Source: Candidatus Poribacteria bacterium
Lineage (GTDB): Bacteria; Poribacteria; WGA-4E; WGA-3G
Assembly: GCA_022827885.1 (NCBI GenBank)
Contig: JAJEIP010000039.1
Location: 1 to 32,936, forward strand
DNA length: 32,936 nucleotides
Reading direction: 5' to 3'
The notes under the pieces are model-generated. The model was given only the letters and a program-made list of their open reading frames with translations. It made no database searches and was not told the origin of the DNA. Position 1 is the stretch's first letter, and the number at the start of each line of letters is the position of its first letter. This document shows, in pieces, positions 20,373 to 32,766 of the stretch. Position numbers and translations under genes: made by a program.

Positions 20373-21809
20373 ATGTTAACGACATTGATTCAAAAAGAGA
20401 TTATGCATCACATTCTCAGCGTCCGGTTTATCGCGCTCCTGCTGATGTGTGCTTTACTCATCCCACTCACGCTTTCGATCAATTATCGTAGATATAGCCA
20501 GAACTTAACAGATTATCAAGAATCGGTAAAACGCGAACGGACAGAAGCGGAGGAAAATCCACCGAATACCCCAGACCCAAACACGGAAGTTTCTAAATTC
20601 TTCCTCAAACCCACGCCGCTAAGCGTCTTCGCGAGCGGTTTAGAGGAGGCGCTGCCGACCTATCTTGGGATGACACGGAATGGCGTGCGACAAGGGTCAG
20701 CAGGGGTTTCTCAAGCATCCGTGGCGTATGCCCTTGGGAACCTGGATTTCCTATTTATCGTCGGGATCGTTTTCAGTTTGTTGGCACTCCTGTTTACGTG
20801 TGATGCGATTGCCGGGGAGAAAGAGGCAGGTACGCTTCGGGTAAACCTGTCAAATCCGCTTCCGAGAGATGTGTTTTTGTGGAGCAAGCTGATTGGCGGA
20901 TACATTGTGTTCGTCGTTCCATTCCTGGTGTCTTTCCTCTTGGGATTACTCATACTCGTCGGGCAAGGGTTTCCACTCGGTGAGCTCAATGTTGCGCTGC
21001 CCGTGCTCGGTCTGACGCTTGTCTCGCTGCTCTATATTGCTGTGTTTTTTGCGATAGGTGTCGCCATTTCAACGTATCTGGACAATTCAAAGACTGCATT
21101 GATCATCGCTTTTACGTTTTGGGTATTTGCGGTGTTGATTGCCCCCCGAGGTGCGTTTGTCATCGCCAAACTCGTCGCACCCACCCGGACACAGCAAGCG
21201 GTTTATATGGAAAAAAGCGCACTTCACAATAACCTGACGAAGGATAAGGACGAGAAGATTTGGCAAAAAACGGCTCTGGCCTTCGATAGTGGGGGTTCTA
21301 TTGGTCTAGACCTAAGCGATCCAGAGACGCAAAAACGGTTGGATAAACTTAGAGGACCGATTGAGGAAGAGTTTCGACAGACGTTCCAGAATCGAGCGGA
21401 CAAGATTGATAGGGACTATCAACGCGAAAAGGATCGGCAAGAACAGGTTGGCGAGATGCTTTCCCGGATCGCGCCCACCGCCTCACTCACCTATTTCGCG
21501 ATGAACCTCACCCAAACCGGCAAGTTAAAAAGGGATACCTACTTTCAAACGGGGGAGCGGTACTACGATCAACTCGATGATGCGTATTTCAGCCAAATTT
21601 CAGACGACGCGTTGTCACAGATGTTACAATTGGGGAGTCGACTGAATGGTGAATCCGAAACAGAGGCACTCCCGCCACCCCCACCTCTGACAGAGCCTTC
21701 TTTATCGGATACAGTGCGTCGCTCGGCAGTGGATGTCCTCTTACTCTGTTTTTTCGCATTAGCGTTTACGGCGGTAGCGTTTCTGAAGTTCTTCCGTTCC
21801 GATATTTAA
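20373..21809 (+). CDS. ABC-2-type transporter permease 1
   Basis: This is a 478-aa membrane subunit of an ABC-2 exporter. A first helix is at about 17-37 (FIALLLMCALLIPLTLSI), followed by a hydrophilic region to about 115. A cluster of helices follows at about 120-260, containing DAIAGEKEAGTLRVNLSNPLPRDVFLWSKLIGGY, the usual ABC-2 coupling segment. A long charged, probably extracytoplasmic segment (about 275-450; DREYQREKDRQEQ-like coil) precedes a last helix near the C-terminus (VDVLLLCFFALAFTAVAFL). AGGAG lies before the ATG. The next permease starts 12 bp after the stop. No ATP-binding partner is present in the window. It is closely similar to permeases 2 and 3. Confidence 0.87.
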   Translation: MLTTLIQKEIMHHILSVRFIALLLMCALLIPLTLSINYRRYSQNLTDYQESVKRERTEAEENPPNTPDPNTEVSKFFLKPTPLSVFASGLEEALPTYLGMTRNGVRQGSAGVSQASVAYALGNLDFLFIVGIVFSLLALLFTCDAIAGEKEAGTLRVNLSNPLPRDVFLWSKLIGGYIVFVVPFLVSFLLGLLILVGQGFPLGELNVALPVLGLTLVSLLYIAVFFAIGVAISTYLDNSKTALIIAFTFWVFAVLIAPRGAFVIAKLVAPTRTQQAVYMEKSALHNNLTKDKDEKIWQKTALAFDSGGSIGLDLSDPETQKRLDKLRGPIEEEFRQTFQNRADKIDRDYQREKDRQEQVGEMLSRIAPTASLTYFAMNLTQTGKLKRDTYFQTGERYYDQLDDAYFSQISDDALSQMLQLGSRLNGESETEALPPPPPLTEPSLSDTVRRSAVDVLLLCFFALAFTAVAFLKFFRSDI

Positions 21810-21821
21810 GGAGAAATTACG

Positions 21822-23261
21822 ATGTTAATGACATTGATTCAAAAAGAGATTATGCACCACATTTTGAGTGTTCGGTTTGTGGCACTTCTGTTAATGTGTC
21901 TCTTGCTCGTTCCACTCACGCTTTCGATCAATTATCGGAGGTATAGCCAGAACTTAACAGATTATCAAGAATCCCTGAAACGCGAACGGACAGAAGCGGA
22001 GGAAAATCCACCGAATACCCCAGACCCAAATACAGAAGTTTCTAAATTCTTCCTCAAGCCCACACCGCTAAGCGTCTTCGCCAACGGTTTAGAGGAGGCA
22101 CTACCGACCTATCTTGGGATGACGCGGAATGGCGTGCGGCAAGGGTCAGCAGGGGTTTCGCAGGCATCCGTGGCGTATGTATTAGGAAATCTGGATTTCC
22201 TGTTTATCGTGGGGACGGTTTTCAGTCTGCTGGCACTTCTGTTTACATTTGATGCGGTGGCAGGAGAGCGGGAGGCGGGAACCCTTCGGATAAACCTATC
22301 GAATTCTCTGCCCCGAGATGTGTTTTTGTGGAGCAAGTTAATCGGTGGATACATTGTGTTCGTTGTTCCGTTTTTAGTGTCTTTCCTCTTGGGGTTACTC
22401 CTGCTCGTCTGGCAAGGGTTTCCGCTGGGTGAGCTGAAAGTTGCGCTGCCTGTGTTGGGTCTAACGCTTATCTCGTTACTCTATATTGCGGTATTTTTTG
22501 CGATAGGCGTGGTCATATCAACGTGTCTTGATAACGCCAAGACTGCGCTGATCGTCGCTTTTACGTTTTGGGTGTTTGCGGTGCTCATCGCGCCGCGGGG
22601 TGCGTTTGTCGTCGCCAAACTCGTCGTGCCCACCCGGACACAACAGGCGGTTTACATGGAAAAAGCGGCAGTTCACAACAACCTGAGTAAAGATAAGGAT
22701 GAAAAAATTCGGGAAAAAATGACTGAAGCTTTCGCGGCGCGCGAAGGTGTCTTTATTCGCTCAGACGACGTAGCGTTCCAAGCAAAAATGGATAAACTCA
22801 GAAAGCCGATTAACGAGCAGTTCCGGTTGGAGTTCCAGAATCACGCAGATAAAATTGACAGGGACTATCAGCGTGAGAAGGATCGGCAAGAGCAGGTTGG
22901 CGAGCTGCTCTCCCGGATCGCACCAACGTCCTCTCTGATCTATTCTGCGATAAACCTAACACAAACCGGTAAGTTAAAAAGGGACACCTACTTTCAAACG
23001 GGGAAGCGGTACTACGATCAACTCGATGACTCGTATTTCAGCGATATTTCAGACGATGCCCTGGCAGTGTTGATGCAGTTAGCGGCTCGGATGAATGATT
23101 CTGAATCCGAAACAGAGGAAATACCACCGCCACCAACGTTGACAGAACCTTCTTTATCGGACACATTGCGTCGATCTACAGTGGATGTGTTCTTACTCGG
23201 TTTTTTCGCATTAGCGTTTACGGCGGTAGCGTTCTTAAAGTTCTTCCGTTCCGATATTTGA
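21822..23261 (+). CDS. ABC-2-type transporter permease 2
   Basis: This 479-aa paralogue of permease 1 has the same topology: one N-terminal helix, a central helix cluster with GEREAGTLRINLSNSLPRDVF, a long charged loop and a C-terminal helix. The first ~130 codons are almost identical at DNA level to permease 1, whereas the charged loop after TRTQQAVYMEK (about 285-325) differs. This points to recent duplication or gene conversion with local divergence. AAGGAG overlaps the permease 1 stop region and lies 8 nt before the ATG, so the pair is one transcription unit. The ATPase must be encoded elsewhere if this is a functional exporter. Confidence 0.87.
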   Translation: MLMTLIQKEIMHHILSVRFVALLLMCLLLVPLTLSINYRRYSQNLTDYQESLKRERTEAEENPPNTPDPNTEVSKFFLKPTPLSVFANGLEEALPTYLGMTRNGVRQGSAGVSQASVAYVLGNLDFLFIVGTVFSLLALLFTFDAVAGEREAGTLRINLSNSLPRDVFLWSKLIGGYIVFVVPFLVSFLLGLLLLVWQGFPLGELKVALPVLGLTLISLLYIAVFFAIGVVISTCLDNAKTALIVAFTFWVFAVLIAPRGAFVVAKLVVPTRTQQAVYMEKAAVHNNLSKDKDEKIREKMTEAFAAREGVFIRSDDVAFQAKMDKLRKPINEQFRLEFQNHADKIDRDYQREKDRQEQVGELLSRIAPTSSLIYSAINLTQTGKLKRDTYFQTGKRYYDQLDDSYFSDISDDALAVLMQLAARMNDSESETEEIPPPPTLTEPSLSDTLRRSTVDVFLLGFFALAFTAVAFLKFFRSDI

Positions 23262-23273
23262 GGCGAGGGATGT

Positions 23274-23313
23274 CTCACCACCATTGGCGGGGTTCCCACC
23301 CCGCCTACTCGCA
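23274..23313. repeat. REP-like hairpin after permease 2
   Basis: GGCGGGG-TTC-CCACCCCGCC is followed by CTAC: a hairpin with CTAC on its right side, as in the other REP-like units here. An equivalent copy follows permease 3 at 28155-28185, because the whole intergenic block is duplicated. Confidence 0.65.
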
Positions 23314-23411
23314 CTGCCAAATTAATTATAAAACGTCAATCTCCATAATTTTTCTCACTATACGCCCATTCTTTCTCCAATCGTTTTTTTTTACAACCCG
23401 CTGCTGAAATA

Positions 23412-23531
23412 TAGTAGATTCCGTAATTACTTAGACACTCGTATCGTTGGATGAACTGTGAATTCCAGGCTACGCTCGGCACAGGCTAACAGCCTATGCT
23501 ACAAGTGTAAACTTATTTTTAGCATCTACTA
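23412..23531. mobile_element. TA-flanked 120-bp MITE with a preserved empty site
   Basis: The ends are TAGTAGATTCC and GCATCTACTA, flanked by TA at 23410-23411 and 23532-23533. The duplicated intergenic block upstream of sigma C (28281-28290) has the same flanks with a single TA and no insert, which defines both element ends and the 2-bp target duplication. The inner hairpin is CACAGGCT-AAC-AGCCTATG plus CTAC. It belongs to the same family as 14390-14509. Confidence 0.92.
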
Positions 23532-23575
23532 TATTTACATACTTACTTTTGGATAGATCTGTGCTATTATTAACA

Positions 23576-23617
23576 AATCCAAGTTGCCCCTATTTATAGA
23601 CATAGCACTCCGCTGAG
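23576..23617. repeat. Truncated left end of the hairpin MITE, upstream of sigma B
   Basis: AATCCAAGTTGCCCCTATTT, then ATAGACATAGCACTCCGCTGAG: the left terminal repeat and half of the first hairpin of the element type seen at 32783-32936. It then stops. Its end lies 18 bp before the ECF -35 motif. Confidence 0.75.
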
Positions 23618-23634
23618 AACCCTTTGAAAAATAA

Positions 23635-23663
23635 TGCAACCTTTTGAGGTCTAAATTACGTCA
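23635..23663 (+). promoter_or_regulatory. ECF-type promoter motif upstream of sigma B
   Basis: TGCAACC (23635-23641), 17 bp, CGTCA (23659-23663), preceded by GAAAAATAA and followed by CCTAAATCAATAGATG. It is 31 bp before the GTG start. The spacing and both boxes are identical to those of the other three copies. Confidence 0.82.
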
Positions 23664-23694
23664 CCTAAATCAATAGATGTAGGGGAGGCTTGCT

Positions 23695-26673
23695 GTGGAA
23701 CAAAACGATGCCCAACTTATTCAGCGGATATTACAAGGGGACCAAGAGGCATTCAGTTCCTTAGTGAGAAAATATCAGCAAGGGGTTCACGCGCTCGTTT
23801 GGCGGAAGATCGGCGATTTTCATATCGCACAGGAAATCACACAAGACGCGTTTCTCCAAGCGTATAAAAAACTCGGAACCTTGAAGAACCCTACCCAATT
23901 CTCGGGGTGGCTCTACGTTATTGCGGCAAACTTATGTCGCAGCTGGTTCCGAAAGAATCGCATGCCGGTGCCGGAATCCTTAGAGGCTACTGAGGCTACT
24001 GAGGTAGATAGGGTTTCATATTCTCAGTATGTGGCAGAAGAACAGGCAACTGAAGCCGATGAAACGCGCCGTGAAGTCGTTAAGACGCTCCTCCAGAAAC
24101 TGCCCGAAAGCGAGCGGACGGTGATGACGCTCCACTACCTCGGCGAGATGACGATCCAAGCCATTTCCGAGTTCCTCGGTGTCTCCCCGAATACCGTCAA
24201 AAGCCGCCTGAGCCGCGCTCGCAACCGTCTACGAAAAGAGAAAGACGTGATTCAGCAGAACCTTGGCAGCTTCCAACTCCCGGATCAATTGACAGAAAAC
24301 ATCATGCGGGAAGTTTCGCGTCTGAGTCCTGTTCCTGCGCCTACGGGAAAGCCGACAGCCCCGTTGGCACTTTCAGCTGTTTCAGCTGTCGTGCTTTTCC
24401 TACTGATTGGGGTTGGCACGCAGCATCTCGCCCGTTTTCAGAAGCCTTACGACCTCAATGCCACCTCGGAATCGACGGTTGAGATTATTGATGCAGTTTT
24501 TATTTACGACTCCCCTGCGAAACCCGCCGTCCGGACTCAGGCAGGAAGTTCGGTACTTCCCGGTAAAAGTCCCGGGGCAGGTCAGAAACCCGACGACCCC
24601 CTTTTTGCCACACTCCCCATCAACACGACAGAAGTCCCGACCCCGAAACCGCAATGGACCCAGACAAAGGGACCCATAGGCGGTAAGGTCCAGAGTCTGT
24701 TCCTCACAGCGAACGCCGATCTCTATGCTGGCGCAGGCACAGATCTCTATAGATTGACAGACGATGGAAACGCCTGGCGATCCATCACGCCTAACATCCC
24801 TATCCAAGGATCGTGGCAAATAACAGAACGGGACGATATCCTCTACGTTGTCTCCGATAGGGCAATCCTCACTTCAATCGATAGAGGTGAGACGTGGCAT
24901 CCACTCGGCACACGTCCCGAAGGACAGTTGATTGATCTCGTCATAACAGATAAGGCACCCGGGGCACAAGTCGATATTATAATGTACTTGGCCCTCGCTG
25001 ATGGTGTATTTCGTTCCGTAGACGCTGGCACCTCGTGGACTTCCGTAAGCGCGCAGTTGATGAACAAAAAAATTCGCGCAATCACTGCCGTTGAAAATGT
25101 CGTGTTTGTCGGGACGGACTCGGGACTTTATCGCCTCAATTCGCAAGGCTGCACCTTATTACCAGTGGGTGAATCCCAGAATATCCGGGCAGTAGCGAGT
25201 GCCGGGCACCGACTCTATGTCGCCGTGGGAGAAGCGGCTGTAAATCAAGGCATCGGTTTCGGCGTGCCAGCGCGAATGATATCGGCGACATCTCTGGCAC
25301 TTTATCGCTCAACAGATTTGGGAAATTCGTGGCAGACCTTAGACTTTAGAAAAAGAAAAACAGAGCCATCCTCCCAAGACGGCATGACGATTCATGTTGC
25401 TTCTGGAACTTCGGAATCCTACCAGAAGGGTAAAAATGGATCCAAAGAGGCAGAAACGAAAACGACTTCAACCTTCAAAATGGTAGCAGTGGAAGAAATC
25501 CTTTGCGCAATGGACGACACAGGCAGTTATTACTCAAGTGACGCAGGTGAAAATTGGGTTAGCTTGGATTCACATATACCAGACATAAGTGATGTTTCCA
25601 GGCTTGTGTCTTTGAATGCGAATACCTTCTATCGGAACGGAAAGTCTGGGATTTATCGCACAACCGATGCCGGCAAGACGTGGCATCCATTTAGCACGGG
25701 ATTGGTAAATACAAGCGTGATGAATTTAGTTTCTGTCCGGAATGTGCTCTATGCCAATGTGGCGGGCGAACTTCTCGCCTCGTCCAACGGGGGTGAGTCG
25801 TGGACGCCTATCTCACACAATCTCGGAAACATCACGCATCTGGCGAAATCCAACGATTTGCTCTATGCCAGAGGTATAGAAGACACGCGCGTTCAACTCT
25901 TGCGCTTAACTACCGAGGACAATCGGTTAAACCCTATTCCGGGGATGTCATCTTTAGGGAGGTCAGACTATTTTGAAAGGAAAAACTTCCCTGTAGATGT
26001 GGATGGACTCGCTGGAGATTACAGTAAGACCGTGGAAGAGATCCTGAAACTGGTGAGCGGACTTTTCGGAGGTTTCGCTGTCAGTGGTAATACTTACTAT
26101 ATGGAATATGAACAAAGACTCTTCAGATGGAAAATCGGCACGCCTGAATGGGTGGATACCGGACTCATAGATGAAGGTGAATACATTGATACGGCTGACA
26201 GTTTTAAAAATCCGAGTTTCATGGGTTTCAAAATCGCTGTTTTAGGGAGAACTGTCTACGTCGCTAAATTGGACGGACACCTCTTCCAGTCGTTTGATGA
26301 AGGAGATACGTGGAACGATGTTACGGGGGAACTTCCGTTTTCTTTTTCACATTTCAAGGCAATAGAATTCGCTGGCGCCACTATCTACGTGGCAACCGAT
26401 AGCGGGGTTGCATATTCAAGCGATGGCACACATTGGCACGTTACATCCGGTCCTGAAGGCGTGCCAATCGTTATAGACCAATTTGCGGCGAGCGGAACAA
26501 CTCTGTATGGCGTAGCGGAACAAGGCGTCTATCAATTAAAAGAAAATTCTGACAGATGGGAACAGATGACACCCGATATTCCGAGTCCTGTTAGTGCTCT
26601 TGATGTTGAGGGGAACATACTTTATGTTGGCACCTATGGCAGCGGTGTGTTACGTTTTAAATTAGACGACTAA
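23695..26673 (+). CDS. Membrane-tethered ECF sigma factor B fused to Asp-box beta-propeller sensor
   Basis: This is one 992-aa polypeptide. Residues 1-190 are an ECF sigma factor (region 2 about 20-85, FLQAYKKLGTLKN; region 4 about 130-185, SERTVMTLHYLGEMTIQ and VSPNTVKSRLSRARNR). A linker follows (QLPDQLTENIMREVSRLSP), then a single membrane helix at about 223-243 (PLALSAVSAVVLFLLIGVGT). Residues about 330-990 are a beta-propeller with many Asp boxes (SIDRGETWHPLG, STDLGNSWQTL, TTDAGKTWHPF, SFDEGDTWNDV). The topology implies sigma in the cytoplasm and propeller outside. Release by proteolysis or conformational control is inferred. Start is GTG with GGGGAGG upstream, and an ECF-type promoter precedes it. 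Permease 3 follows after 39 bp. Confidence 0.9.
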   Translation: MEQNDAQLIQRILQGDQEAFSSLVRKYQQGVHALVWRKIGDFHIAQEITQDAFLQAYKKLGTLKNPTQFSGWLYVIAANLCRSWFRKNRMPVPESLEATEATEVDRVSYSQYVAEEQATEADETRREVVKTLLQKLPESERTVMTLHYLGEMTIQAISEFLGVSPNTVKSRLSRARNRLRKEKDVIQQNLGSFQLPDQLTENIMREVSRLSPVPAPTGKPTAPLALSAVSAVVLFLLIGVGTQHLARFQKPYDLNATSESTVEIIDAVFIYDSPAKPAVRTQAGSSVLPGKSPGAGQKPDDPLFATLPINTTEVPTPKPQWTQTKGPIGGKVQSLFLTANADLYAGAGTDLYRLTDDGNAWRSITPNIPIQGSWQITERDDILYVVSDRAILTSIDRGETWHPLGTRPEGQLIDLVITDKAPGAQVDIIMYLALADGVFRSVDAGTSWTSVSAQLMNKKIRAITAVENVVFVGTDSGLYRLNSQGCTLLPVGESQNIRAVASAGHRLYVAVGEAAVNQGIGFGVPARMISATSLALYRSTDLGNSWQTLDFRKRKTEPSSQDGMTIHVASGTSESYQKGKNGSKEAETKTTSTFKMVAVEEILCAMDDTGSYYSSDAGENWVSLDSHIPDISDVSRLVSLNANTFYRNGKSGIYRTTDAGKTWHPFSTGLVNTSVMNLVSVRNVLYANVAGELLASSNGGESWTPISHNLGNITHLAKSNDLLYARGIEDTRVQLLRLTTEDNRLNPIPGMSSLGRSDYFERKNFPVDVDGLAGDYSKTVEEILKLVSGLFGGFAVSGNTYYMEYEQRLFRWKIGTPEWVDTGLIDEGEYIDTADSFKNPSFMGFKIAVLGRTVYVAKLDGHLFQSFDEGDTWNDVTGELPFSFSHFKAIEFAGATIYVATDSGVAYSSDGTHWHVTSGPEGVPIVIDQFAASGTTLYGVAEQGVYQLKENSDRWEQMTPDIPSPVSALDVEGNILYVGTYGSGVLRFKLDD

Positions 26674-26712
26674 CGAAACGGTTAAGAAACAAAAAACAGA
26701 GGAAAAATTACC

Positions 26713-28137
26713 GTGTTAATAACATTGATTCAGAAAGAGATCATGCATCACGTTTTGAGTGTTCGGTTTGTGGCACTTCTGTTAATGTGCATTTTGCTCA
26801 TCCCACTCACCTTTTCTATTAGTTATCGCAAGTATCGTCAGAACTTGACAGATTATCAAGAATCGGTGAATCGCTCACGATCAGAAACAAAGGAAAATCC
26901 GCCGAATGCACAGAACCCAAACATAGAAGTTTCCAAACTTTTTCTCAAACCCACGCCGCTGAGCGTCTTCGCAAACGGTTTAGAGGAAGTGCTGCCGACC
27001 CATCTTGGAATGACGCGAAATGGCATTCGGACGGGTTCACCCGCACTTGCACAAGCACCCCTCGCGTACGTACTCGGCAATCTGGATTTCCTGTTTATTG
27101 TGGGGACGGTTTTCAGTCTGCTGGCACTTCTGTTCACATTTGACGCTGTGGCTGGAGAGAGAGAAGCCGGCACACTTCGGATAAACTTATCCAACTCCCT
27201 TCCCCGAGATGTATTTTTATGGAGCAAACTGATCGGTGGATATGTTGTGTTTGTCGTTCCATTTCTGGTGTCTTTCCTCTTGGGATTACTCATACTCGTC
27301 GGGCAGGGATTTCCTTTAGGTGAGTTCGGGGTTGCTGCCCCCGTGTTCGGTCTCACGCTTATCTCGTTACTTTATATCGCGGTATTTTTTACGATGGGTG
27401 TGCTCATCTCAACATGCCTTGATACCGCCAAAACCGCCCTCATAGTTGCTTTCACATTCTGGGTGCTCGCGGTGCTCATCGCGCCCCGCGGTGCGTTTGT
27501 CATTGCTAAATTGGTCGCACCGACCCGAACGCAGCAGACTGTTTATATGGAAAAAACAGCAATTCGCAATAACCTCGGGAAAGAGAAACAAGAGAAGTTG
27601 ACTCAAAAAATGGTTGAAACTTTTGGGACGAAGTTGGCGATAACACCAGAGGTGCAAAAAAAATTGGACGAGCTTCGGAAACCGATTAACGAGGAATTTC
27701 GACTGAAGTTCCAAGATCAAGCAAACAAGATTGACAAGGACTACCAACGCGAAAAGGATCGCCAAGAACAAATGGGAGAAATGCTCTCTCGGCTCGCGCC
27801 AACGTCCGCTCTCATCTATTCTGCGATAAACCTAACGCAAACGGGTAAGTTAAAAAGGGACACCTACTTTCAAACGGGTGAGAGATACTACCAGCACCTT
27901 GATGATTCATATTTCAGTGAAATCTCAGACGACGCGATGGCACAGGTCCAACAAATATTGGATCGACAGATGAATAATCTTTCTGAATCAGAAGAAATTC
28001 CACCGCCCCCAACACTGACGGAACCTGATTTATCGGAAACGTTGCGGCGGTCTGCAGTGGATGTGTTCTTACTCGGTTTTTTCGCTTTAGCGTTTACGGT
28101 GGTGGCATTTCTGAAGTTCTTCCGTTCCGACATCTGA
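26713..28137 (+). CDS. ABC-2-type transporter permease 3
   Basis: This 474-aa third paralogue has the same helices and coupling motif (DAVAGEREAGTLRINLSNSLPRDVF) as permeases 1 and 2. Start is GTG, as the alignment of MLITLIQKEIMHHVLSVRF with the paralogues shows, with GAGGAA upstream. The early hydrophilic part (SRSETKENPPNAQNPNIEVS) and the charged loop (NNLGKEKQEKLTQKMVETFG) are the most diverged stretches. It follows the sigma B fusion by 39 bp and is probably co-transcribed from the sigma B promoter. No ATPase is adjacent. Confidence 0.87.
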   Translation: MLITLIQKEIMHHVLSVRFVALLLMCILLIPLTFSISYRKYRQNLTDYQESVNRSRSETKENPPNAQNPNIEVSKLFLKPTPLSVFANGLEEVLPTHLGMTRNGIRTGSPALAQAPLAYVLGNLDFLFIVGTVFSLLALLFTFDAVAGEREAGTLRINLSNSLPRDVFLWSKLIGGYVVFVVPFLVSFLLGLLILVGQGFPLGEFGVAAPVFGLTLISLLYIAVFFTMGVLISTCLDTAKTALIVAFTFWVLAVLIAPRGAFVIAKLVAPTRTQQTVYMEKTAIRNNLGKEKQEKLTQKMVETFGTKLAITPEVQKKLDELRKPINEEFRLKFQDQANKIDKDYQREKDRQEQMGEMLSRLAPTSALIYSAINLTQTGKLKRDTYFQTGERYYQHLDDSYFSEISDDAMAQVQQILDRQMNNLSESEEIPPPPTLTEPDLSETLRRSAVDVFLLGFFALAFTVVAFLKFFRSDI

Positions 28138-28154
28138 GGCGAGGGATGTATCAC

Positions 28155-28185
28155 CACCATTGGCGGGGTTCCCACCCCCGCCTAC
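28155..28185. repeat. REP-like hairpin after permease 3
   Basis: GGCGGGG-TTCC-CACCCCCGCC followed by CTAC: the duplicate of the unit at 23274-23313 with one extra C in the right arm. Confidence 0.6.
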
Positions 28186-28329
28186 CTGCACCGTCAAATT
28201 AATTATAAAACGTCAATCTCCATAATTTTTCCCACTATACATCCATTCTTCCTCCAATCGTTTTTTTTACAACCCGCTGCTGAAATATTTACATACTTAC
28301 TTTTGGATAGATCTGTGCTATTATTAACA

Positions 28330-28371
28330 AATCCAAGTTGCCCCTATTTATAGACATAGCACTCCGCTGAG
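28330..28371. repeat. Truncated left end of the hairpin MITE, upstream of sigma C
   Basis: The first 42 bases have the same fragment as at 23576-23617, with the same break point after CACTCCGCTGAG. The truncation therefore predates the duplication of the intergenic block. Confidence 0.75.
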
Positions 28372-28388
28372 AACCCTTTGAAAAATAA

Positions 28389-28417
28389 TGCAACCTTTTG
28401 AGGTCTAAATTACGTCA
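28389..28417 (+). promoter_or_regulatory. ECF-type promoter motif upstream of sigma C
   Basis: TGCAACC (28389-28395), 17 bp, CGTCA (28413-28417), then CCCATAATCAATAGAT. It is 42 bp before the GTG start. It differs from the sigma B copy mainly downstream of the -10, where the leader is longer. Confidence 0.82.
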
Positions 28418-28459
28418 CCCATAATCAATAGATATAAACATTTCTGGAGGAGACTTGCT

Positions 28460-31387
28460 GTGGAACAAAACGATGCCCAACTTATTCAGCGGATATTACA
28501 AGGGGACCAGGAGGCATTCAGTCCCTTAGTGAAAAAATATCAGCAGGGGGTTCACGCGCTGGTGTGGCGGAAGATCGGCGATTTTCATATCGCACAGGAA
28601 ATCACACAAGACGCGTTTCTCCAAGCGTATAAAAAACTCGGAACCTTGAAAAACCATACCCAATTCTCGGGGTGGCTTTACGTTATTGCGGCAAACTTAT
28701 GTCGCAGCTGGTTCCGAAAGAATCGCATGCCGGTGCCGGAATCCTTAGAGGCTACTGAGACTAATGCGGTAGATAGGGTTTCATATTCTCAGTATGTGGC
28801 AGAAAAACAGGAAGCTGAATCCGATGAAACGCGCCGTGAAGTCGTTAAGACGCTCCTCCAGAAACTGCCCGAAAGCGAACGGACGGTGATGACGCTCCAC
28901 TATCTCGGCGAGATGACGATCAAATCCATTTCCGAGTTTCTCGGTGTTTCCCAGAATACCATCAAAAGCCGCCTGAGCCGCGCCCGCAACCGTCTCCGGA
29001 AAGAGGAAGACGTGATTCAGCAGAATCTTGGCAGCTTCCAATTCCCGGACAGTCTCACTGAGAATGTTATGCGACACATTGCCGAGCTGAGCCCAACCGC
29101 GCCACCCCCGTCTAAGAAACCCTTACTCCCTTTGGCAGCACTCGGTGCCGTAGCCGTCTTGGCGATCCTCTTCGGCATCGGGAGTCAATATCTCCTCCGG
29201 TTTCAGGTGCCATACAGTTTCGATGCCGACACTGAGCCTACCATTGAAATCGTTGATGAACTCATCTACCTTGAGATTCTCGCCAAACCTGCAGTGCGGA
29301 ACCGGAGCGGTAGAACGATCGCGCCCGGTGAAAACAGCGGTGCCGGGATGCAAACCGCCGAGCCTCACTTCACCGCAAACGCATCGGACGACACCGACAC
29401 GGGGGCGGATTCACGGTGGACCCAGGCAATGAGTCCCACAGGCAGTATTGTCTTCACTATCTTTGAATCTGCTGACGGCACCCTCTACGCTGTTGCAAAA
29501 ACGGGTCTCTATAAATTGACGCCCGATGCGACATGGGTGCTTCTTAACGCTGACATCCCTATTGGACAGTACCGAATCCCTATCACCGAGCACCAAGGCA
29601 CCCTCTATACCGTCTCTACCGATGAAGTATTCGCTTCAGAAGATGGGGGTGAGACTTGGAACGCCCTTGGCGCGCGACCCAAGGGCATCGCGAATGGACT
29701 CATCGTCACCGAGTCACCCGAGAAAGAAGGTATCACCCTGTCCCTCGCCCTTCAAGAGAAAGGCATCTTCCGATCTACCGATACCGGTCGGCACTGGATG
29801 CCCCTGAACACCGGATTGACAGGGAAACGGATTTATAGCTTCGCCGCCGTCGGAAACACCTTATTCGCTGGCACCAACCAAGGCCTCTATCGGCTGGATT
29901 CAAACGAATGGCACCAATTGCTCACAGACGCAGCCGATGCCGTCTATGCCGTGACGGTTGACGGAAGCGACCTGTATATTGGAATGGGACGAGATGTCGA
30001 GATGTCGGGATCCAGGAAACGCGGGATTCCGAGAAGCGTAGACAAAAGAATCTTCCACTCCGCGGATCTTGGAACGTCATGGACGGACATAACGCCTATA
30101 GATGCATCCCGAGTGATGCATTTCGACTCCGCCCTACAGATTTTGGCTGTAGATAAAACGCTCTTCGTCCTCGGCGTAACCGAATTTCGATCCAAGGATG
30201 GCGGGAAAACCTGGACACGCCTCAGATCTAACATAAGTTCCCGGATGGTCTCCAGATTCCCAGCGATCGCAATCGATGAGAATACATTTTACAAAGCCGA
30301 CCCCTACGGCATCAGCCGCACCACCGATGCTGGTGAGTCTTGGCACCCGTTTGTAAACGGGATGACAGGTCCCGCCATATACGACTTAATTGCCCTGAAT
30401 CAGAGACTCTATATGCGTATCGGTGGACACCTGGTCCACTCCACCGATGCCGGTCAGACCTGGCAACGGCTGCGCTTCAATACCGATGCGCCGACACCCC
30501 CATTGGATCCCGATTTTTATGCACGCATAAAACTCACAACTGCCAATAATCGCCTCTATGGCATTTCAATTGAGGAGTACAGACCGAGCCTTTTCCGAAC
30601 ATCCGATGCCGGAGATGAACTCATCCCCCTCCAAGGGGTCCCCGCTTTTGAACCTGAGCCGCCCCCAGACAGGGCAAGCGATATGTTGCGTCTATCGAGA
30701 AAAATAGGTTTAAGAATCAAGGCCTTTGCTGTCCGGGGTGAGACGTTTTACGCGCAATATCAGGAGAAACTTTACAAATGGAAACCCGGAGATACCGAAT
30801 GGACAGACACAGGACTTGCCGATCTCGGCTTTCTATCTCCTATCTTGGCTGTTTCTGGGGAAACCGTCTACATCAGTAGACCGCGCCTCAGTAGGCCGCG
30901 CGGAACATTGTTCCAATCTTTAGACGGCGGAACCTCGTGGAAAGACCTCACTGCAACGCTGCCGAGCGGATCCACACGTTCTTTAGACGGCGGAGATGCC
31001 TCGAAAGACAGCGGCGTACTGCAGGCGAGCCATTTCACACGTTTTAAGGAGATAACCTTCATCGGTTCATCGGTTTGTATCGCAACCGACACAGGTGTCT
31101 TGACCTCACACACCGGAGAACACTGGCGGGTTATCACAGATAAAAACCGGATGCCCATCATCATAGAAAAATTCGCTACAGACGGCACGACCCTCTACGG
31201 TGTCGGCAAGAACGGTGCCTACCGCTTAGATGCTGCCGGAGACTGGGACCTGATTTCTTCAGAGGTTCCCAACGGTTCGATTACATCTCTCGTTATCAGT
31301 AACAATCAACTTTACATCGCAACCCACAGCGACGGCATATTCCACATCTCGCTTGAGGAGCAGATGGATATTGCCAATTCGTTCTAA
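28460..31387 (+). CDS. Membrane-tethered ECF sigma factor C fused to a diverged Asp-box beta-propeller
   Basis: This is a 975-aa polypeptide with the same plan as copy B. The ECF sigma factor occupies residues 1-190, with region 4 helix SEFLGVSQNTIKSRLSRARN. The linker FPDSLTENVMRHIAELSP follows, then a membrane helix at about 221-242 (LAALGAVAVLAILFGIGSQY). A long propeller carries Asp boxes such as SEDGGETWNALG, STDTGRHWMPL, SADLGTSWTDI, SKDGGKTWTRL, TTDAGESWHPF, STDAGQTWQRL and SLDGGTSWKDL. The sigma part is nearly identical to B, while the propeller shares only the framework, so a different ligand is likely. Start is GTG with GGAGGAG upstream. A hairpin without a T run lies after the stop (31411-31440). 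A selenoprotein candidate gene follows 128 bp later. Confidence 0.9.
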   Translation: MEQNDAQLIQRILQGDQEAFSPLVKKYQQGVHALVWRKIGDFHIAQEITQDAFLQAYKKLGTLKNHTQFSGWLYVIAANLCRSWFRKNRMPVPESLEATETNAVDRVSYSQYVAEKQEAESDETRREVVKTLLQKLPESERTVMTLHYLGEMTIKSISEFLGVSQNTIKSRLSRARNRLRKEEDVIQQNLGSFQFPDSLTENVMRHIAELSPTAPPPSKKPLLPLAALGAVAVLAILFGIGSQYLLRFQVPYSFDADTEPTIEIVDELIYLEILAKPAVRNRSGRTIAPGENSGAGMQTAEPHFTANASDDTDTGADSRWTQAMSPTGSIVFTIFESADGTLYAVAKTGLYKLTPDATWVLLNADIPIGQYRIPITEHQGTLYTVSTDEVFASEDGGETWNALGARPKGIANGLIVTESPEKEGITLSLALQEKGIFRSTDTGRHWMPLNTGLTGKRIYSFAAVGNTLFAGTNQGLYRLDSNEWHQLLTDAADAVYAVTVDGSDLYIGMGRDVEMSGSRKRGIPRSVDKRIFHSADLGTSWTDITPIDASRVMHFDSALQILAVDKTLFVLGVTEFRSKDGGKTWTRLRSNISSRMVSRFPAIAIDENTFYKADPYGISRTTDAGESWHPFVNGMTGPAIYDLIALNQRLYMRIGGHLVHSTDAGQTWQRLRFNTDAPTPPLDPDFYARIKLTTANNRLYGISIEEYRPSLFRTSDAGDELIPLQGVPAFEPEPPPDRASDMLRLSRKIGLRIKAFAVRGETFYAQYQEKLYKWKPGDTEWTDTGLADLGFLSPILAVSGETVYISRPRLSRPRGTLFQSLDGGTSWKDLTATLPSGSTRSLDGGDASKDSGVLQASHFTRFKEITFIGSSVCIATDTGVLTSHTGEHWRVITDKNRMPIIIEKFATDGTTLYGVGKNGAYRLDAAGDWDLISSEVPNGSITSLVISNNQLYIATHSDGIFHISLEEQMDIANSF

Positions 31388-31515: not shown

Positions 31516-32766
31516 ATGAAAAACAGAAAGTTAGTTTCTACAATTCTCGTCATATCGGTTTTAAGTTTGAGCCTAATTCTTCAGGGGTGTGCCGATAAAA
31601 TAAATATGAGGAACACGTTAGACAAGAAGGCAACCTTACAGGTGAATGCCCACTGGGATCCAATTGCTGATTCCTCGTTGGATCTTCCTAACCATTCGCC
31701 GAAACACGCCGCACTTCTTAACGACCTTTCACCAGCACACCCCAGTCAAGCATATAAGGCAGATGCCTTCACAGTCTTTTTCCCAAACCGAAGTGTTAGC
31801 GTAGGAGATTTGTGGGAACTTGATGCCAAGGAAATTATTCCCTTTCTGCGTCAGTTCCATCCCGGTGCGACTGCAGAGATACGTAGCAATCCAGGCAGTA
31901 AATTTTTCGTACCCCTGTTTAACTTCACGCTGACGTTCTCAAAGGTTGGACTGGAATCAGAAGGTGCCTACGCGTGCCTACGGGCACTTTCGTCGTCTTA
32001 CGCCGAAATCGTCTTCAGAATCCATGCGGACTTCCTGCTCAATAAGGACGCTGGTGCTTACTTTACACCTGCACAATTTACCGGACGCTTGATACTCAAC
32101 CGGAGCAACGGCGCGATTCGAGAATTCTGGCTCTATCTGCCGCCTCGCAACAGCAATGTCGACTTTTTCGCCTTTGGAGGGGCGGATATGCTGTTCGTAC
32201 CGCGCATGGAACTCATTGGACGGCATACAGATGACAAGAATGAGATTGTGTGGGAAACCACTATCACGGAAGCAGCGGCAAAAACAGCATTGAAGCAGGC
32301 TTTCTACAAGTCGGCTCAGATTGAAACATTCCCTATTGAGGAGATTGTCGCAGAAGCACAAGCAAAAAATCGTCCGATTCATCTCCTTCTCACATGGGGT
32401 GTATTCGACGATGAATCGTGCTGAGCGAGTGGCAAAACTTTGAGAGCGGGTCCGCTCTACTCATCAGAAGTCATTCAGCTACTCAATAAACAATTTGTCA
32501 ATGTATTCGTTGTTTTGGGGGATTTGCCAGCACTCCAGAACAGCACAAAAGGCGCACCGGTAAATCAATTGGCGGCAGTTGTTGCCCAAACGCTTAAAGA
32601 ATCTGTCGGCCAAGGGGCAGGGAAATCGGTCAACACTTTTGTACTATCGCCCGAGTTGGAACTGGTAGGTCATTTACCCTATCGAAAACCGAATGAGTCC
32701 TTTTCACCTGTTGATGAAGAAAAATATTTAACGTTTCTCAAGGATTCTTTGGCGATGCTTAAATAG
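31516..32766 (+). CDS. Candidate lipoprotein selenoprotein with Cys-Sec (TGC TGA) motif and thioredoxin-like C-terminus
   Basis: I read one 416-aa protein through an in-frame TGA at 32422-32424. The N-terminus is a lipoprotein signal (LILQGC, lipidated Cys25), so it should sit in the envelope. Residues about 26-280 form an unrecognised beta-rich domain. From about 290 the pattern IHLLLTWGVFDDESC-U-ASGKTLR, then SSEVIQLLNKQFVNVFVV, resembles thioredoxin-like proteins, with Cys302-Sec303 at the redox site. The TGA continues in frame for 113 codons to TAA, and a GGTC-loop hairpin lies 24 nt beyond it. If the TGA were a stop, the protein would end at 302 with a lone Cys, and 32440-32766 would be an orphan frame starting at a TTG without a ribosome binding site. 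AAAGGGAA precedes the ATG. Redox or thiol chemistry is inferred. Confidence 0.8.
32425..32475 (+). promoter_or_regulatory. Candidate bacterial SECIS element
   Basis: Directly after the in-frame TGA is a 6-bp perfect stem AGAGCG/CGCTCT (32443-32448 and 32453-32458) closed by the tetraloop GGTC (32449-32452). There are 24 nt between TGA and loop. Known bacterial SECIS hairpins lie immediately downstream of the UGA, have a G in the first loop positions (GGUC in E. coli formate dehydrogenase) and are read by SelB. A weaker outer pairing, ACTT (32437-32440) with AAGT (32468-32471), could extend the stem. Confidence 0.75.

Follow-up and report, generated by a model that had tools for sequence, protein, structure and literature searches.

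A selenoprotein family of Candidatus Poribacteria most likely homologous to selenoprotein N

Near the end of a contig of a sponge-associated bacterium (Candidatus Poribacteria), an open reading frame (ORF) of 302 codons ends at a TGA, and the same frame continues beyond it. The question raised by this locus is whether the TGA is a stop codon or a codon for selenocysteine (Sec, U), and what kind of protein the complete frame encodes. The window analyzed in the present study is the whole contig (JAJEIP010000039.1; 32,936 nucleotides) from a metagenome-assembled Candidatus Poribacteria genome of 5.13 Mb that is 97% complete (GCA_022827885.1). We consider it highly probable that the gene encodes a Sec-containing, exported (probably lipid-anchored) thiol-selenol oxidoreductase, which belongs to a Poribacteria family most likely homologous to selenoprotein N (SelN; SELENON or SEPN1 in humans).

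Reading frame and protein family

The 302-codon ORF lies on the forward strand (31516–32424) and ends with DDESC followed by the TGA (32422–32424), its last codons being TGC TGA. A further 113 in-frame codons extend up to a TAG (32764–32766), and the whole gene (31516–32766), with its one in-frame TGA, encodes a product of 416 residues with U at position 303. The initial annotation had described this continuation of a lipoprotein frame and had anticipated that standard annotation would split the gene. The frame was as described, and ordinary gene calling would return the 302-aa ORF ending at the TGA.

The source genome carries seven copies of the family, six besides the window gene, and in all of them the TGA lies in the motif C-U-x-(S/T)-G-K. 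A profile search detected the family in 65 of the 85 Poribacteria genomes and in 7 of the 22 genera, and a single genome gave as many as 18 matches. One TGA was present in nearly all of the matches listed by this search, and divergent members belonging to other families and genera also contained it. When 84,980 species were scanned with a pattern, a test that detects close relatives only, the family was found in Poribacteria only, and viral contigs yielded no match to it.

The Sec site was surveyed in 77 distinct Poribacteria copies using a pattern that allowed U, C, G, S, or A at this position. The codon was TGA in 73 copies and a Gly codon (GGA or GGC) in four, and no copy encoded Cys. In the Gly variants, the downstream protein is unchanged, and both halves form one chain. 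The search for homologues across the TGA that the initial annotation recommended was thus successful in that TGA or Gly variants with the shared C-terminal half were obtained; the Cys homologues that it envisaged were not found among them. In comparisons with eight homologues, dN/dS was 0.20–0.50 downstream of the TGA versus 0.12–0.22 upstream, and the extension past the TGA is under purifying selection. Since the Gly variants are continuous and homologues align across the TGA, we conclude that the two ORFs constitute one protein.

Natural loss of Sec by a change from TGA to GGA or GGC, resulting in Gly rather than Cys, was noted in the SelN-like paralogues at loci L061, L069, L070, L071, and L072. 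As read from the sequences, two of the four distinct Gly variants (L061 and L071) retain the stem and loop described below, as may be expected after a recent loss of Sec. The loop of the L069 variant is without its G.

Decoding of the in-frame UGA

The genome encodes the complete machinery for the synthesis and insertion of Sec: selA (601 bits), selB (350 bits), selD (360 bits), and tRNA-Sec (selC, 75 bits), which is located approximately 60 nt downstream of selB. Furthermore, selA scored above the curated cut-off in 18 of the 20 Poribacteria genomes tested, which indicates that the Sec trait is widespread across this phylum. The initial annotation had proposed a search for selA, selB, selC, and selD in the same genome, and had listed the outcomes that would speak against a selenoprotein. 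In each case the opposite was observed: sel genes are present, homologues continue beyond the TGA, and they align across it with Sec.

The selD gene of the source genome (L027:1501-2424) is itself a selenoprotein gene, with one in-frame TGA in the motif CAGUASK.

A bacterial SECIS element was located downstream of the Sec codon (32443–32458). It consists of a 6-bp stem with the 5' arm AGAGCG (32443–32448), the loop GGTC (32449–32452), and the 3' arm CGCTCT (32453–32458). The stem and loop had been recognized in the initial annotation, which placed the stem 24 nt after the TGA; it is the loop that lies 24 nt after the TGA, and the stem starts at 18 nt. The stability of the stem in the window sequence alone was not unusual (z = -0.5 against dinucleotide shuffles), and an Rfam scan of the window at the gathering score returned nothing. 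Since free-energy z-scores were not significant, a synonymous-recoding test was used in their place. All of the 77 distinct UGA contexts contained a perfect stem of 6–8 bp with the tetraloop AGUU, AGGU, or GGUC, beginning approximately 15–18 nt after the UGA, whereas synonymous recoding with the codon usage of the family produced such a stem in 21%. Compensatory changes were observed in the two arms (GAGAGCG/CGCUCUC to GAGAGUG/CACUCUC, and GAGGGC/GCUCUC to AAGAGC/GCUCUU). The stems occur in two registers, one base apart, with the loop at a nearly fixed distance from the UGA. In the family, the stem follows the UGA at a short distance, and the loop has a G at its first or second position, as is expected of a bacterial SECIS. 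It is because the stem is conserved across the copies of the family, with compensatory changes, that we regard it as being beyond chance.

The sel machinery, the conservation of the TGA, purifying selection, and the conserved SECIS bring Sec decoding close to being established by computation. We conclude that the decoding of the family UGA as Sec is as good as established computationally.

We weighed two other readings of the TGA, both of which we rejected. The first is that an ordinary 302-aa lipoprotein stops at the TGA, in which case the ORF that follows would be another gene or the remains of a decayed one. This is the output of standard annotation, a TTG start is available at 32440, and the stem is thermodynamically ordinary by itself. 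However, a start at 32440 would remove the conserved ASGK motif, conservation of the protein crosses the TGA in all copies, the Gly variants join both halves, dN/dS is below 1 downstream of the TGA, the stem is present in every context, and the genome has the full Sec machinery. The comparative evidence (conservation across the TGA, the Gly variants, and the stem) already contradicts two genes, and we consider this reading extremely improbable. The chance that the UGA is decoded as another residue, through reassignment to Trp, Gly, or Cys or through plain readthrough, is almost negligible: UGA has been reassigned in some bacterial lineages and four copies have Gly at the site, but many other ORFs of the window and the loci terminate normally at TGA, tRNA-Sec, selA, selB, and selD are present, a SECIS-type stem follows each UGA, and the site is next to Cys within a thioredoxin fold.

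Domains and relation to selenoprotein N

The Sec-containing product begins with a signal peptide (31516–31590) with the lipobox L-Q-G-C at residues 22–25, and Cys25 is the predicted lipoprotein anchor. The lipobox Cys is retained in many orthologues and is replaced in others (e.g., L031 and one L033 copy). Therefore, the lipid anchoring proposed in the initial annotation agrees with the lipobox of the window protein, but does not extend to copies that begin with an ordinary signal peptide or with an extracytoplasmic function (ECF) sigma factor and a transmembrane (TM) segment.

Alignments and an AlphaFold model divide the remainder of the protein into an N-terminal beta-rich domain (residues about 28–245; 31597–32250) and a C-terminal thioredoxin-like domain (residues about 246–416; 32251–32763), which contains Cys302-Sec303 in S-C-U-A-S-G-K-T-L-R. 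The model of residues 28–416, built with 42 members, had a mean pLDDT of 88 and a pTM of 0.83; an earlier model from 17 sequences had a mean pLDDT of 77. In the model, the Cys-Sec pair is located in the loop that connects a beta strand to the first helix. Foldseek matches were convincing for the C-terminal part only and included DUF255/DsbH (3ira and 7tkv), DsbH (2ju5), AGR2/AGR3, ERp18/19, and the UAS domain, with E-values from 2e-4 to 6e-2 and modest TM-scores of approximately 0.5–0.6 normalized by the target; the PDB matches cover the thioredoxin domain only. Weak Pfam matches to Thioredox_DsbH and Thioredoxin_7 were also obtained in a few family members. These results support the proposal that the extension past the TGA is the rest of a thioredoxin-like domain. 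DsbH/DUF255 (Thioredox_DsbH), ERp18/19, and the AGR proteins share the C-terminal fold; however, their identity to the Poribacteria family is 12–17%, and they are without a SelN-type N-terminal domain. We know of no vicinal Cys-Sec pair in these proteins.

In the N-terminal domain, G150, R168, H170, Q187, G190, P209, and N214 are invariant. Foldseek gave no convincing structural match to this domain, and searches of Pfam, NCBIfam, and PDB sequences with the protein and profiles identified no relative of it and no model for the family. The initial annotation had called this domain unrecognized, which holds with respect to the databases; however, judged by its similarity to an approximate human sequence, it seems to correspond to the N-terminal domain of SelN.

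Human SELENON carries Sec462 in an SCUG motif of a thioredoxin-like domain (PMC12839072, PMC8967691), and disease substitutions of SEPN1 have been reported at G463, R466, and R469 (PMC3541580) and at R291 (PMC8967691). The site of the Poribacteria family is S-C-U-(G/A)-x-G-K-x-L-R, with SCUG in many copies and SCUA in the window protein. Human G463, R466, R469, and R291 correspond to A304 (G in many copies), K307, R310, and R168 of the window protein, respectively. The alignment of 42 members shows no variation at K307, R310, or R168; the human protein has the same residues as R310 and R168, and K307 is a conservative replacement. Accordingly, the published SELENON positions 460–463, 466, 469, and 291 fit the family in residue type and local spacing.

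Further SEPN1 substitutions at G273, H293, G315, and N340 correspond to the invariant G150, H170, G190, and N214. The spacing of human positions 273-291-293-315-340 is 18-2-22-25, and that in the Poribacteria family is 18-2-20-24. An approximate C-terminal human SELENON sequence, written out by us rather than taken from a database record, matched both domains with 169–171 bits, and the best of 2000 shuffles scored 3–4 bits. Since this sequence was written after the bacterial sequences had been read, we regard the full-length match as a strong lead and not as a test. When P0001 and 42 members of the family were scanned against Pfam, no EF-hand was detected. Because of the caveat on the human sequence and because no EF-hand was detected, the family is called SelN-like and was not filed as an orthologue.

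Convergence needs to be weighed against homology. The family may be a genuine Poribacteria family of thioredoxin-like Sec proteins that has no eukaryotic counterpart, its resemblance to SelN being due to an SCUG-like motif that arose independently in a widespread fold. The dependence of the long alignment on the approximate human sequence, the missing EF-hand, and the absence of a PDB or Pfam link are consistent with this explanation. However, the published SELENON positions 460–463, 466, 469, and 291 match in residue type and local spacing, and the approximate human sequence matches both domains. We consider convergence unlikely and regard homology of the Poribacteria family with eukaryotic selenoprotein N as the most likely explanation.

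In both proteins, Sec lies within a thioredoxin-like domain, in a Cys-Sec site of the S-C-U-G type that continues with x-G-(R/K)-x-L-R. From sequence only, the N-termini of the Poribacteria family (signal peptide/lipobox or ECF-TM) predict a domain outside the cytoplasm, on the side equivalent to the ER lumen. The two proteins differ in several respects. The SECIS of SELENON is in the 3'-UTR, whereas that of the Poribacteria family is an in-frame bacterial element, and SELENON has a type II TM segment in place of a lipoprotein, signal-peptide, or ECF-TM N-terminus. The human protein has a luminal, calcium-sensing EF-hand and SEPN1 is described as a reductase in the ER lumen (PMC7474598), whereas in Poribacteria an EF-hand was not detected, many paralogues are present per genome, and many of these carry an extra C-terminal beta domain.

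Regarding novelty, an inventory of 119 prokaryotic selenoprotein families from May 2026 contains no SelN-like family (PMC13188914, Table 1). As examples of families also present in eukaryotes it names SelD, GPX, deiodinase-like, SELENOW-like, and MsrA (PMC13188914), and a similar short list of families found in both domains of life is also without SelN (PMC3473315). Sec is likewise next to Cys in those known prokaryotic selenoproteins that have a CU motif (KCU-star/DUF466, SaoC, SaoL, HgcA, CopZ-like form 2, and MbdU); however, they are assigned to other named domain families, and the table describes none of its families as SelN-like and gives none an SCU(G/A)xGK site (PMC13188914, Table 1). 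Nothing relevant on a bacterial SelN or on selenoproteins of Poribacteria was found in the open-access literature searched, and earlier subscription reports or database entries are possible. Judged by these inventories (PMC13188914, PMC3473315), the family appears to be new among prokaryotic selenoproteins.

Mutations in SELENON cause human myopathies, and no solved structure was found that matches the Poribacteria family by sequence. A bacterial form without an EF-hand may be a tractable protein for investigating Cys-Sec chemistry and the N-terminal domain. The family also marks a blind spot of annotation: it is present in most of the Poribacteria genomes examined, and standard gene calling cuts nearly every copy at the TGA.

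Sigma factor fusions and proposed function

In four genomes (L002, L076, L077, and L078), the SelN-like domain and a module comprising an ECF sigma factor and a hydrophobic segment form a single-frame fusion in which the TGA is kept. In fusions of the type found at L002 (L002:1492-3561, reverse strand), Sigma70 regions 2 and 4 were detected with E-values of 1.1e-13 and 3.2e-15, respectively. A related gene lies directly upstream of the window selenoprotein gene on the same strand (28460–31387); it encodes an ECF sigma factor, a presumed TM helix, and an extracytoplasmic BNR/Sortilin-like beta-propeller (Pfam Sigma70_r2, r4_2, ECF, and Sortilin/BNR), and the ECF-TM module of this gene closely resembles that fused to the SelN-like domains in L002 and L076–L078. 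Known ECF sigma factors with fused membrane and extracytoplasmic domains likewise have Sigma70 regions 2 and 4, after which come a hydrophobic segment and a C-terminal domain of large size; the difference is that the extracytoplasmic domain is a SelN-like selenoprotein in L002 and L076–L078. In other genomes, SelN-like genes occur in tandem clusters adjoining ECF sigma factors, the C-terminal domain of which is homologous (87–92 bits) to the extra C-terminal domain of many SelN-like proteins.

This beta domain of approximately 120 aa (...NAFxAxISV), common to the C-termini of many SelN-like proteins and the neighboring ECF sigma factors, was noted at L033:4001-5725, L031:6434-7753, L079:6269-7654, and L080:13286-14632. 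It corresponds to no Pfam family.

The following mechanism is proposed. SelB, guided by the stem-loop approximately 17–18 nt past the UGA, is predicted to deliver Sec-tRNA at codon 303. The product would be exported, through the lipobox here and through other anchors elsewhere. In the model, the C-terminal thioredoxin-like domain would present the vicinal Cys302-Sec303 in the loop that leads into the first helix, where the pair of an SCUG-like site is expected. The pair may cycle between the thiol/selenol and selenenylsulfide forms and thereby reduce disulfides or peroxide-oxidized thiols outside the cytoplasmic membrane. By analogy, this role would resemble that of SEPN1 as a reductase in the ER lumen (PMC7474598). 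In the ECF fusions, the SelN-like module may serve as the extracytoplasmic part that conveys redox signals to transcription.

Since the ECF fusion is found in four genomes and ECF sigma factors adjoin the genes elsewhere, part of the family probably participates in redox signaling across the membrane, and the fusions are a possible selenium-dependent transmembrane transcription regulator. The fusions and neighborhoods would make a direct link from selenium or redox state to transcription testable. We tentatively envision a broader scenario, which at present is rather doubtful. SelN, which the cited papers treat as a eukaryotic family, would also be an expanded Sec family of Poribacteria and would have been exchanged between the domains of life, possibly by sponges and the bacteria living in them, the SECIS moving from the 3'-UTR into the reading frame or in the opposite direction. 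In some genomes, it would then be the sensing half of a selenium-dependent, membrane-anchored ECF sigma factor, the Cys-Sec pair of which controls transcription.

The window contains a second ECF-sigma/beta-propeller gene (23695–26673), interleaved with ABC-2 permeases. From 20373 to 31387, ABC-2 permease genes are in tandem with the two ECF-sigma/beta-propeller genes (23695–26673 and 28460–31387), an arrangement suggestive of a modular, membrane-anchored ECF system in Poribacteria.

TGAs with a long in-frame run on both sides were found twice in the window, in the selenoprotein gene and at 28135. The latter, at the end of an ABC-2 permease gene, is followed by 71 codons in frame and is without further support as a Sec codon; this continuation is probably due to chance. 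At the contig end (32790–32900), there are two similar copies of TCTATAGACATA...CACTCCGCTGGAGTG / CACCCCTCTGGGGTG, which may represent a dispersed repeat at which the assembly broke.
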